Shown: positions 46,078-49,007 of the stretch, piece by piece
Position numbering within the stretch: the first letter of the stretch is position 1
Layout: each line of letters begins with the position of its first letter
Assembly: GCF_002192455.1 (NCBI RefSeq)
Contig: NZ_CP021744.1
Location: 2,882,001-2,946,000 of the forward strand
DNA: 64,000 bases
Direction of reading: 5' to 3'
Source: Streptomyces albireticuli
GTDB taxonomy: Bacteria > Actinomycetota > Actinomycetes > Streptomycetales > Streptomycetaceae
The notes under the pieces: model-generated
Databases searched by the model: none
Seen by the model: the letters and a program-made list of their open reading frames with translations, nothing else
What the model was told of the DNA's origin: nothing
Position numbers and translations under genes: made by a program

Positions 46078-46809
46078 CTAGTACCACTGGTTGGCCTGCC
46101 AGAACGACCAGGCGCCGCACGGGCTGCCGTAGCGCTCGTTCATGTAGCCGAGGCCCCACTTGATCTGGGTGGCGGGGTTGGTCCGCCAGTCGGCGCCGGC
46201 CGACGACATCTTGGAGGCGGGCAGCGACTGCACCAGACCGTAGGCGCCGGAGGAGGCGTTGGTCGCGGTGTAGTCCCAGCTGCTCTCGTTGTTCACAATG
46301 TTGCTGAAGCACTGGAACTGGTCGCCGGGGACCATCTGCCGGGCCATCGCCTGGACCTCGGCGGTGGAGTAGGAGCTCTTGACCGCGAAGTCGGAGGCGT
46401 CGCGCGCGGCGGACCGGCTGCCGACCTCGTCCTTCTTCTCGCGCTCCTCGGCGTCCTTCTTCGCCTGCTCCTTCTCCTCCGCCTCCTTCTTCGCCGCGGC
46501 GTCCGCGGCGTCCTTCTTGGCGGTGGCGTCCTCGGCCGCCTGCTTGCGCGCGGCCTCCTCGGCGCCCTTCTTCGCGGCCGTGTCCGCCGCGTCGGACTGG
46601 GTGTCCGCCTGCTGCGTCAGGGAAGCGGTCTGCGCCTGGACGTTGTGTCCGACGGGGATCTCCGCGAGGAGCGTCGCGTCGGCTGCGGTGGCCTCGACCT
46701 GAGGGGTCGTGCCCTGGTCGCTGCCCGAGGCGACACCAACGACGGCGCCGACGGTGGTGACCGCGGTGGCGGACGCCACGGCGAATCCCCGGACCGAAAT
46801 CCGGCTCAC
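46078..46809 (-). CDS. Secreted SLT-type muralytic transglycosylase
   Basis: The 243-residue protein has a signal segment (residues about 6-32; VASATAVTTVGAVVGVASG), an Ala/Lys/Glu coiled coil (about 65-130, AAKKDAADAAAKKEAEEKEQ) and a C-terminal lysozyme-like domain (about 150-243; VPGDQFQCFSNIVNNESSW with the likely catalytic Glu, SGAYGLVQSLPASKM, NPATQIKWGLGYM). It should cleave peptidoglycan glycan strands during growth or spore germination. The GTG start at 46809 is preceded by GGAAGGAAACC. The approximately 470-nt region upstream has conserved-looking stems and may be a riboswitch, consistent with control of such hydrolases by c-di-AMP in Streptomyces. Confidence 0.9.
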   Translation of the reverse strand: MSRISVRGFAVASATAVTTVGAVVGVASGSDQGTTPQVEATAADATLLAEIPVGHNVQAQTASLTQQADTQSDAADTAAKKGAEEAARKQAAEDATAKKDAADAAAKKEAEEKEQAKKDAEEREKKDEVGSRSAARDASDFAVKSSYSTAEVQAMARQMVPGDQFQCFSNIVNNESSWDYTATNASSGAYGLVQSLPASKMSSAGADWRTNPATQIKWGLGYMNERYGSPCGAWSFWQANQWY

Positions 46810-46978
46810 ACGGTTTCCTTCCAGCATCGCCCGCATAGGTGACCTCGCGGACGCAATCGTGCCCCTGGCGCTGGCCTCCGTCGTGCCGGTCCCGTGTGGA
46901 GCGGAGGAACCGACTGGTCACAGAAGGCGCTGACCCGGTGGGGCCTCCCGCGAGGGAGGTCCGTGTGACGCTCGGGCG

Positions 46979-47043
46979 GCATACGGCGACGCTGTTCAGT
47001 TCTGTGGTGTCGCACCCCAAGGAGGTGCGGTGGTGCCGTATGC
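46979..47043 (-). promoter_or_regulatory. Structured 5' leader of the SLT gene (riboswitch candidate)
   Basis: GCATACGGC (46979-46987) and GCCGTATGC (47035-47043) form a perfect 9-bp stem. It encloses a hairpin CGCACC...GGTGCG (47011-47029) whose minus-strand loop reads CTCCTTGG, an anti-Shine-Dalgarno-like sequence able to pair with the AAGGA of the downstream ribosome site. The minus-strand RNA also contains GAACTGAACAGCG before CCGTATGCC, which resembles the 3' half of the ydaO/c-di-AMP riboswitch. The identity is inferred. The rest of 46837-47282 has no gene. Confidence 0.4.
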
Positions 47044-47282
47044 GGGGGCCTGACAGGACCCAGACTTTGCCCGACCGGGACGCCCCGAGGCAATTCCGCG
47101 TTGCGTGGGAAAGCTCACACGTCGTTTACGCCTGGGATTTCCCGGAAAGCCGGGCGCCGCACAACAGCGCGCGGCTAAGCTCCTTCGCTTTGCCGCGCGC
47201 TGTCGTCAAGCCGCCGTCCGTGCGGGATCCATGACGGATCCGCTCCGGTGCCACGGAAAACGACGGACAAGACGGATCCGTA

Positions 47283-48605
47283 TCAGATACGGCCGTCCTC
47301 CAGCATTTCGGTCACCAGGGCCGCGATCGGGGAACGTTCCGAACGCGTCAGAGTGACATGCGAGAAGAGCGGATGGCCCTTCAGCTTCTCGACGACGGCG
47401 ACCACTCCGTCGTAACGCCCCACGCGCAAGTTGTCGCGCTGCGCCACATCGTGGGTGAGAACCACCCGCGAATTGGCTCCGATCCGCGACAGAACGGTCA
47501 GCAGGACATTCCTTTCGAGCGACTGGGCCTCGTCCACGATCACGAATGCGTCGTGCAATGACCGGCCGCGGATATGGGTGAGCGGCAGCACCTCCAGCAT
47601 GCCGCGCCCGACGACCTCCTCGATCACCTCGGCGCTGGTCACCGCCGAGAGGGTGTCGAAGACGGCCTGGGCCCACGGGCTCATCTTCTCGGCCTCGCTG
47701 CCGGGCAGATAGCCCAACTCCTGGCCGCCCACCGCGTACAGCGGCCGGAAGACCATCACCTTGCGGTGCTGCCGCCGCTCCAGGACGGCCTCCAGCCCGG
47801 CGCACAGCGCCAGCGCCGACTTGCCCGTGCCGGCCCGGCCGCCCATGGACACGATGCCGATGTCCGGGTCCAGGAGCATGTCCAGGGCCACCCGCTGCTC
47901 GGCGCTGCGGCCGTGGATGCCGAACGCCTCGCGGTCGCCCCGGACCAGCCGTACGGAGCCGTCCGCGGCCACCCGGCCGAGGGCCTTGCCGCGCTCGGAC
48001 TGGAGCACCAGTCCCGTGTGCACCGGCAGTTCCGCCGCCTCGGGCACGTCGATGGCCTCGGTGGCGTACAGCTCGTCGACCTGCTCGGCGGTGACGGCGA
48101 GCTCCGCCATGCCCGTCCAGCCCGAGTCCGTGATGGCGAGCTCCGCGCGGTACTCCTCCGCCAGCAGGCCGACCGCGGACGCCTTGATGCGCAGGGGCAG
48201 GTCCTTGGACACGACCGTGACGTCGTATCCCTCCGCCTGGAGATTGCGGGCGACCGCGAGAATGCGCGAGTCGTTGTCACCGAGGCGGAACCCGGCGGGC
48301 AGTATGCCCGTATCCGAGTGGTTGAGCTCGACCCTGAGCGTCCCGCCCAACTCACCGATCGGAATCGGTGAGTCGAGGCGGCCGAATTGCACCCGGTATC
48401 CGTCCAGCAGGCGCAGCGCCTGCCGCGCGAAATAACCGAGCTCGGGGTGGTGCCTCTTGGCCTCCAGCTCCGTGACCACCACCACGGGCAGCACGACCTC
48501 GTGCTCCTCGAAGCGGGACATGGCGCCTGGGTCGGCCAGCAGGACGCTGGTGTCGAGGACATAGGTGCGCCGGTCGTTCTCACGGCGCTTCTTGCTGGTC
48601 ACCAC
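47283..48605 (-). CDS. phoH: PhoH-family PIN-ATPase
   Basis: The 440-residue protein has an N-terminal PIN ribonuclease domain (about 10-150; [55 protein letters not shown]) and a C-terminal PhoH P-loop ATPase. The Walker A is [12 protein letters not shown] (about 254-265), the Walker B is FVIVDEAQS (about 352), and HDVAQRDNL is the sensor region. Such PIN-PhoH fusions are RNA helicase/RNase candidates, related to mycobacterial PhoH2. The start chosen gives MVTSKKRR; GTG one codon downstream is an alternative. A 402-nt gap to uppS lies upstream. Confidence 0.93.
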
Positions 48606-49007
48606 GGGTGGACGAACCCCCTCGGGGAGAGGTCGGGGCGCGACGGCGTCGCCGGGGAATGGGCCGGGTCGATGCCCTTCGAGGGCCGGACGCCGGCCCT
48701 CCGCGTCGTCCGCGCGACCTGTCGGGTCCGCACGGTCCGCACGGTCGTCGTCCGTGTGCAAAGGGCCTCCCGGGCGGGCGGCCCCATGCCGCCCGCTGGC
48801 AGAGCGACGGTCTTTGGACAGACCGTCGACCTGGAGGGGATATTCCCGCTGTACCGCTTGACCATGCAACGGCATATGCGACGACGAGGTGAACCCTTGT
48901 TCCGCCGACCTGTGGAGCAGCCGCTCCGGCCGCCGGATCCGACCTGTCAACCGGCTTGTCCGCCGCCCCCGGCGGACCGCCTTACGGGCCCTCGCGCGAG
49001 CCGCGCG
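48606..49007. other. 402-nt intergenic region upstream of phoH
   Basis: No convincing gene is present. It holds a hairpin for uppS at 48958-48977 and a locally less GC-rich stretch (48840-48900). It probably contains the phoH promoter and a leader of up to 250 nt; no clear -10/-35 pair was found. Confidence 0.5.
48958..48977 (-). terminator. Hairpin after uppS
   Basis: GTCCGCC and GGCGGAC form a 7-bp stem with a 6-nt loop, 31 nt past the uppS stop on the minus strand. Confidence 0.55.

Follow-up and report, generated by a model that had tools for sequence, protein, structure and literature searches.

Upstream of the SLT gene of Streptomyces albireticuli lies a conserved RNA of about 240 nt whose helices covary, whose position and spacing relative to the gene are fixed, and whose link is exclusively to SLT genes. 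We consider it probable that this RNA is a cis-acting, aptamer-like 5' leader of the SLT mRNA, built as a four-way junction with a kiss between the P4 and P5 loops, and that it controls translation. It has two features of a riboswitch: a covarying structure in a 5' leader and a constant association with one downstream function. Its restriction to a single gene family counts against this reading.

In the model that we favour, P1 would be the closing helix of a four-way junction from which P2, P3 and P4 branch, and P5, beyond the junction, would end some 5 nt short of the Shine-Dalgarno sequence. If the P4 loop GUGACC pairs with the P5 loop GGUCAC, the aptamer-like domain would come to dock beside the ribosome site. 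Stabilisation of the docked fold by a signal, probably a small molecule, would then alter ribosome access to GGAAGGA and GUG. Control of translation and a ligand are what we infer from this architecture; that the Shine-Dalgarno sequence lies outside every conserved helix counts against the model. Features are collected in Table 1, with coordinates that refer to the window, the whole stretch of 64,000 nt that was analysed.

Table 1. Features of the SLT locus and of its leader RNA, in window coordinates.
Feature	Position	Strand	Basis or description
phoH2 (RNA helicase PhoH2)	47283-48950	-	NF053827
Operator-like palindrome GTGTGAGCTTTCCCAC, upstream of promoter	47105-47120	-	conserved, 97/98 genus leaders
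-35 TTGCCT	47088-47093	-	conserved in genus leaders
-10 CAAAGT (commonest form CAGAGT)	47064-47069	-	conserved in genus leaders
Whole conserved RNA element, about 240 nt	46816-47054	-	covariance model R1, 182.1 bits
P1 5' strand GCCCC, partner 46861-46865	47045-47049	-	RNAalifold
P1 3' strand GGGGC	46861-46865	-	RNAalifold
P2 5' strand (stem of the original prediction)	47035-47043	-	inverted repeat, RNAalifold, covariation
P2 3' strand	46979-46987	-	inverted repeat, RNAalifold, covariation
P2a hairpin within P2	47012-47028	-	added by eye; covariation
P3 (46973-46977/46933-46937), encloses variable hairpin P3a	46933-46977	-	covariation
P4 (46923-46928/46874-46879), variable-length loop	46874-46928	-	covariation
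Putative pseudoknot strand GTGACC in P4 loop	46916-46921	-	loop complementarity in 228/239 leaders
P5 hairpin (46847-46853/46828-46834), just 5' of ribosome site	46828-46853	-	covariation
Putative pseudoknot strand GGTCAC in P5 loop	46839-46844	-	loop complementarity
Shine-Dalgarno sequence GGAAGGA	46816-46822	-	sequence; spacing to SLT start in relatives
GTG start codon of SLT gene	46807-46809	-	sequence and relatives
SLT gene	46078-46809	-	PF01464 / NF052397 C-terminal domain; putative secreted peptidoglycan hydrolase

From a single stem to a common fold

The original prediction of a riboswitch candidate centred on a 9-bp perfect stem (46979-46987/47035-47043), which is indeed present and forms helix P2 of the larger RNA. 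By itself such a stem is weak evidence, because at least one perfect 9-bp inverted repeat with a loop of up to 60 nt turns up in 102 of the 500 sequences obtained by dinucleotide shuffling of 46810-47282. The observed count of inverted repeats, 6, which takes in all repeats of 46810-47282, was reached by 1 of 500 shuffles. Folding energy of 46810-47075 was ordinary in comparison with shuffles (z 0.14), single-sequence energy being uninformative here. The stem matters because relatives show two-sided changes in its pairs, six of nine in alignment A1 and seven of nine in A2. The hairpin enclosed by the stem does contain CTCCTT, proposed earlier as an anti-Shine-Dalgarno loop, but relatives do not conserve it: it is peculiar to this sequence (1/239 distinct leaders), and CCTCC occurs within P2 in 33 of the 239. 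Pairing of the leader's 5' end with the Shine-Dalgarno sequence was likewise set aside, as the mean run of 3.8, against 3.2 in shuffled sequences, is above chance and too short.

A1 is a MAFFT alignment of 59 leaders and the source of covariance model R1 (214 positions). Its 64 candidates were 62 leaders of <90% identity plus L009 and L020, and L028, L045, L069, L084 and L085 were dropped by hand for long inserts or nearness to others. A2 holds 71 loci, 63 of them from other genera, which were fitted to R1 and are hence biased toward it. Run on A1 with no structure supplied, RNAalifold returned P1 to P5 with 28 pairs, 12 of which show two-sided changes. To these we added 15 pairs by eye (five in P2a, six in the pseudoknot, and four extending P3, P4 and P5), which gives a consensus of 43 pairs. 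Positions outside the helices are conserved too, as invariant and near-invariant columns of A1.

Covariation among related leaders

Do relatives preserve this fold by compensatory change? Two-sided changes occur in 17 of 43 pairs in A1, compared to 7.0 in shuffles, and in 23 of 43 in A2, compared to 12.1; in either alignment, none of 500 shuffles was as high. Under the consensus, 96.9% of the A1 cells are paired, against 35-46% for slid versions, and the figure for A2 is 97.3%. A single P2 pair, followed over 71 loci, reads GC in 45, UA in 12, AU in 11 and CG in 3.

Because kinship among the sequences inflates two-sided counts, we built a tree-based null, in which a FastTree tree and the changes per column were kept and the changes were placed independently (200 replicates). 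Of compensatory events on the same branch, A1 had 34, against a null of 5.5 and a null maximum of 11, and A2 had 61, against 5.5 and 15; 0/200 replicates were as high in each. By helix, the events in A2, with the null mean in brackets, were 2 for P1 (0.14), 21 for P2 (1.0), 20 for P2a (2.7), 2 for P3 (0.01), 9 for P4 (0.6), 7 for P5 (1.0) and 0 for the pseudoknot (0.01). The corresponding events in A1 were 11 for P2 (0.8), 10 for P2a (2.3), 3 for P3 (0.3), 6 for P4 (0.8) and 4 for P5 (0.9), with 0 for both P1 and the pseudoknot. The percentage of paired cells did not rise above the tree null for P1 (reached by 126 of 200 replicates in A1 and 141 in A2), for P3 (78 and 101) or for the pseudoknot (123 and 13), and in A1 the two-sided cells of P5, 2, fall below the null mean of 3.1. 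Judged by these events per helix and by the tree-null percentages, covariation supports P2, P2a and P4 firmly and gives good support for P5; P3 and P1 rest on few compensatory events. For P1 these concern one pair with changes from GC to AU in A2, and none in A1.

The loops of P4 and P5 can form at least 6 bp in 228 of 239 distinct leaders, with G-U pairs allowed and in any register. The 11 leaders that cannot form such a pairing include all three g2 genomes. With zero same-branch compensatory events in A1 and A2, the pseudoknot is unproven by covariation because both strands are near-invariant; it is a putative element, suggested by invariance only. In L106, one of the 11 leaders, the letters suggest one compensated pair, which was left out of the counts.

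Gene context and the extent of the transcript

The genome is a single contig of 8.1 Mb. On the minus strand, phoH2 is followed by the SLT gene and then by an AI-2E-type transporter. The neighbours on the plus strand we take, from a reading of their translations, to be ahpD and ahpC, with an oxyR-like gene beyond. An ATG at 46836 is altered in some relatives (e.g. L011, L018, L020). By eye, the first SLT codons (46809-46780) are near-invariant at the nucleotide level across 71 loci, perhaps beyond what the protein needs.

Of the long leader of some 470 nt proposed originally, the structure and the conservation stood up to analysis and the length did not: about 250 nt is the better figure. The remainder, from 47283 to about 47150 and including a hairpin at 47149-47221, probably belongs to the phoH transcript as its 3' end. 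This hairpin, which follows phoH, is long and GC-rich, its position and sequence are conserved in relatives, and a terminator scan found no T-run in it. Of 98 genus leaders, 95 have a TTG -35 and a CAGAGT-like -10 at a spacing of 17-18 nt (18 nt in 93); a strict sigma-70 scan returned no promoter at the locus. In this genome the -10 ends 9 bases upstream of GUCAGG, so the transcript should begin near the 5' end of the element, with a predicted start near 47059.

The palindrome upstream of the promoter has the core TGTGA-N4-[TA][CA]NCA in 97 of 98 genus leaders, most commonly as GTGTGAGCTTTCACAC. Its copy at 47105-47120 is the only one in the genome within 2 mismatches. It resembles the Crp motif without fitting it. 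By eye, L110 and L111, two SLT copies that lack the leader, are preceded by comparable GTGTGA...CACAC sites and by a comparable promoter.

Downstream of the RNA the arrangement is nearly constant. An SLT match follows directly in 70 of 71 loci. Where the alignments reach residue 1, the SLT start falls on the same base relative to the RNA in 58 of 59 cases and one base later in the other; on visual inspection the remaining 11 SLT-bearing loci share this start. The exception is L178 (1501-1696), one of three RNA copies in a g14 genome, which has no SLT match downstream and is probably a decayed copy. Within the retrieved flank, a phoH match lies upstream in 60 of 71 loci (that of L180 covers only 27 residues), and the genomes of the other 11 hold a further RNA copy with phoH upstream.

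Two other mechanisms were considered and rejected. An intrinsic attenuator does not fit, since the terminator scan shows no intrinsic terminator after P5. A leader peptide is contradicted by 169 leader lengths that spread over the three frames (69/54/46) and by stops in the three frames in 89, 125 and 108 of 169 leaders.

Distribution across genomes

The SLT protein is present in all 101 genus genomes. We examined 110 SLT loci from 100 of these genomes (all but G050). A regular expression matched the leader in 98 of the 110 loci and R1 in 100, a single locus per genome. The 10 loci without leader are extra copies of the SLT gene, each from a genome in which another copy does carry the leader; L112, which is among these ten, covers just 340 bases.

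In the family, R1 matches 195 of 200 Streptomycetaceae genomes, from 15 of 17 genera. A laxer rerun on 22 genomes adds one g5 genome (1.4e-6), which raises the count to 196 genomes and 16 genera; no match was gained in this rerun for the g10 genome or for three further g5 genomes. Among the genomes of the rerun, 13 have multiple copies, 11 of them g14 and two g7. Beyond the family the RNA was not detected. A class sample of 394 genomes gave 40 R1 matches, all in the element's own genus, and none in the 354 genomes outside it, and none of 15 genomes of the order outside the family matched. Distant relatives may be missed, because the family, class and order searches were run with tighter filtering, at the expense of weak matches. 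In named genomes, a 19-nt pattern found at least 120 stretches. Among the matches listed, 80 in number, every one is from Streptomyces or Kitasatospora and matches R1, one of them being truncated by the end of its sequence. Presence in 16 of 17 family genera, together with the covariation, supports the proposal that the leader is a riboswitch candidate.

Energy models and pairing of the start codon

For the native 239 nt, the minimum-energy fold contains every pair of P1, P2, P2a, P3 and P5; the P4 pairs are absent, their region being folded in another register. When 37 nt of the SLT gene are added, P1 and P3 drop to 0, and P2, P2a and P5 stay. Mean pair probabilities over the 71 A2 loci with 37 nt added are 0.14 for P1, 0.77 for P2, 0.24 for P3, 0.49 for P4 and 0.45 for P5. 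Enforcing the consensus costs a median of 6.1 kcal/mol over the minimum in these loci, with the pseudoknot outside the model, and 3.7 kcal/mol in 30 genus loci with sufficient flank. The energy model excludes the pseudoknot and any ligand, and energy models alone do not favour P1, P3 and P4. Folds that require a ligand are often disfavoured by energy models. The same result would also be expected if P1 or P3 were wrong.

Could the leader act by hiding the start codon? Here and in some other members of the genus, CCGUGUGA (46806-46813), a segment that includes the start codon, may pair with UCACACGG (46961-46968) inside P3. The two segments form a perfect 8-bp repeat, and with 37 nt added their pairing is predicted here at a mean probability of 0.96, with P1 and P3 lost. 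The start region finds its best partner inside P3 in 62 of 93 genus leaders; the pairing energy is -10.7 kcal/mol versus -6.9 for shuffled segments. However, swapped pairs do equally well (-10.6 against -10.7 for own pairs, with 8 of 40 swaps as good), and the best partner is inside P3 in just 8 of 69 A2 leaders, mostly from other genera. An ensemble probability above 0.5 is reached by just 5 of 30 genus loci (2 when the downstream part is shuffled) and by 4 of 71 A2 loci. Loss of P1 on adding 37 nt is not specific either, because P1 falls with a shuffled addition too. We regard sequestration of the start codon as unlikely even for this genome and some others of its genus, and we rejected it as a general mechanism given the equality of swapped pairs and the few A2 loci that show the pairing. 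Because its fold excludes P1 and P3, it could instead serve as the OFF state of the junction model, plausibly in this genome and not in general.

What the leader might sense

Several Streptomyces cell-wall hydrolase genes are under the control of c-di-AMP riboswitches, according to the accessible text of PMC10117811, which counts seven 'ydaO-like' hydrolase leaders in S. coelicolor; that of PMC8079986 gives six ydaO leaders found by Rfam in S. lividans, one of them before a 'transglycosylase'. Is the SLT leader another of these, as was originally proposed? RF00379 fails to match 46700-47400 at E<=10 and the loci of eight relatives at E<=5, whereas the same model recovers the five genuine copies that lie elsewhere in the genome (L001-L005), which served as positive control. 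The ydaO reading thus fails at the sequence level, and a diverged c-di-AMP riboswitch is scarcely credible despite the precedent among hydrolase genes (PMC10117811 and PMC8079986, in their accessible text). The original prediction had named two outcomes that would together speak against it: the lack of a ydaO hit came true, the lack of covariation did not.

Nor does the leader belong to another catalogued family, as far as Rfam 15 covers them: there were 0 matches at the gathering score in the whole window. At E<=10, 46700-47400 gave 6 weak matches far below that score, five in 47142-47281 on the phoH side and the sixth, che1, on the plus strand at 46915-46988. The eight relatives' loci gave 8 matches at E<=5, none of which overlaps the leader.

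A hint of the physiological signal comes from S. coelicolor. There, AhpC and AhpD are SCO5032 and SCO5031 (accessible text of PMC2367054), and SCO5029 is called an rpf homologue (accessible text of PMC3123327); on these grounds of gene order SCO5029 is likely the orthologue of the SLT gene. Its expression goes up under moenomycin and down under bacitracin and vancomycin (PMC3123327, same text), which makes a cell-wall intermediate a testable class of ligand. This response may arise from the promoter rather than from the RNA. We tentatively suggest that the leader represents a new class of riboswitch, restricted to Streptomycetaceae and sensing a wall metabolite other than c-di-AMP, in which the P4-P5 kiss, joined in some species by the competing start-codon pairing, would set translation of the hydrolase. 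A second, unrelated and near-universal RNA before another hydrolase would imply RNA-level sensing of a second signal.

Two readings dispense with a ligand. The leader could be the site of an RNA-binding protein or the target of an RNase, for instance of a helicase or nuclease. Association with a single gene and conserved loop nucleotides fit this as well as a riboswitch, the adjoining gene for the RNA helicase PhoH2 offers a hint only, and the accessible text of PMC11109978 voices the same reservation about its own candidates. A multi-helix junction with a likely pseudoknot nevertheless exceeds, on general knowledge, what a simple protein site needs, and we consider this reading quite unlikely. 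Very unlikely, in our view, is a constitutive mRNA element that governs stability or the basal rate of translation without sensing anything. Near-universal presence in the family before a single gene would suit such an element, and promoter and palindrome alone could explain the antibiotic response of SCO5029 (PMC3123327, accessible text), but conservation extends to nucleotides outside the helices. An aptamer-like leader that controls translation is the reading that we retain.

Comparison with known systems

A literature search that covered the main text of chiefly open-access papers returned no description of the leader, nor is one given in the accessible text of PMC3765725, PMC4681348, PMC2422843, PMC8269248 or PMC11678152; PMC8269248 reports 96 novel premature transcripts, given in its data sets. 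Four riboswitch candidates in S. avermitilis, among them dauA, livJ and pntA, are reported in the accessible text of PMC11109978. These three resemble the SLT leader in being Streptomyces leaders near the ribosome site and differ, by their description there, in gene and structure. We hold the novelty of the element with reservation, because the fourth candidate of this 2024 survey could be the same RNA.

With the c-di-AMP riboswitch RF00379, the SLT leader shares its place before a hydrolase gene in Streptomyces and a multi-helix fold; it differs in its helices and conserved nucleotides, and the model does not match it. In the cobalamin riboswitch RF00174, a loop of the junction domain kisses a hairpin loop beside the ribosome site. 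That family has no match here (E<=10) or in the relatives' loci (E<=5), and the SLT gene is unrelated to cobalamin. The likeness, an analogy only, is that the P4 and P5 loops, with 0 compensatory events between them, are complementary in 228 of 239 leaders.
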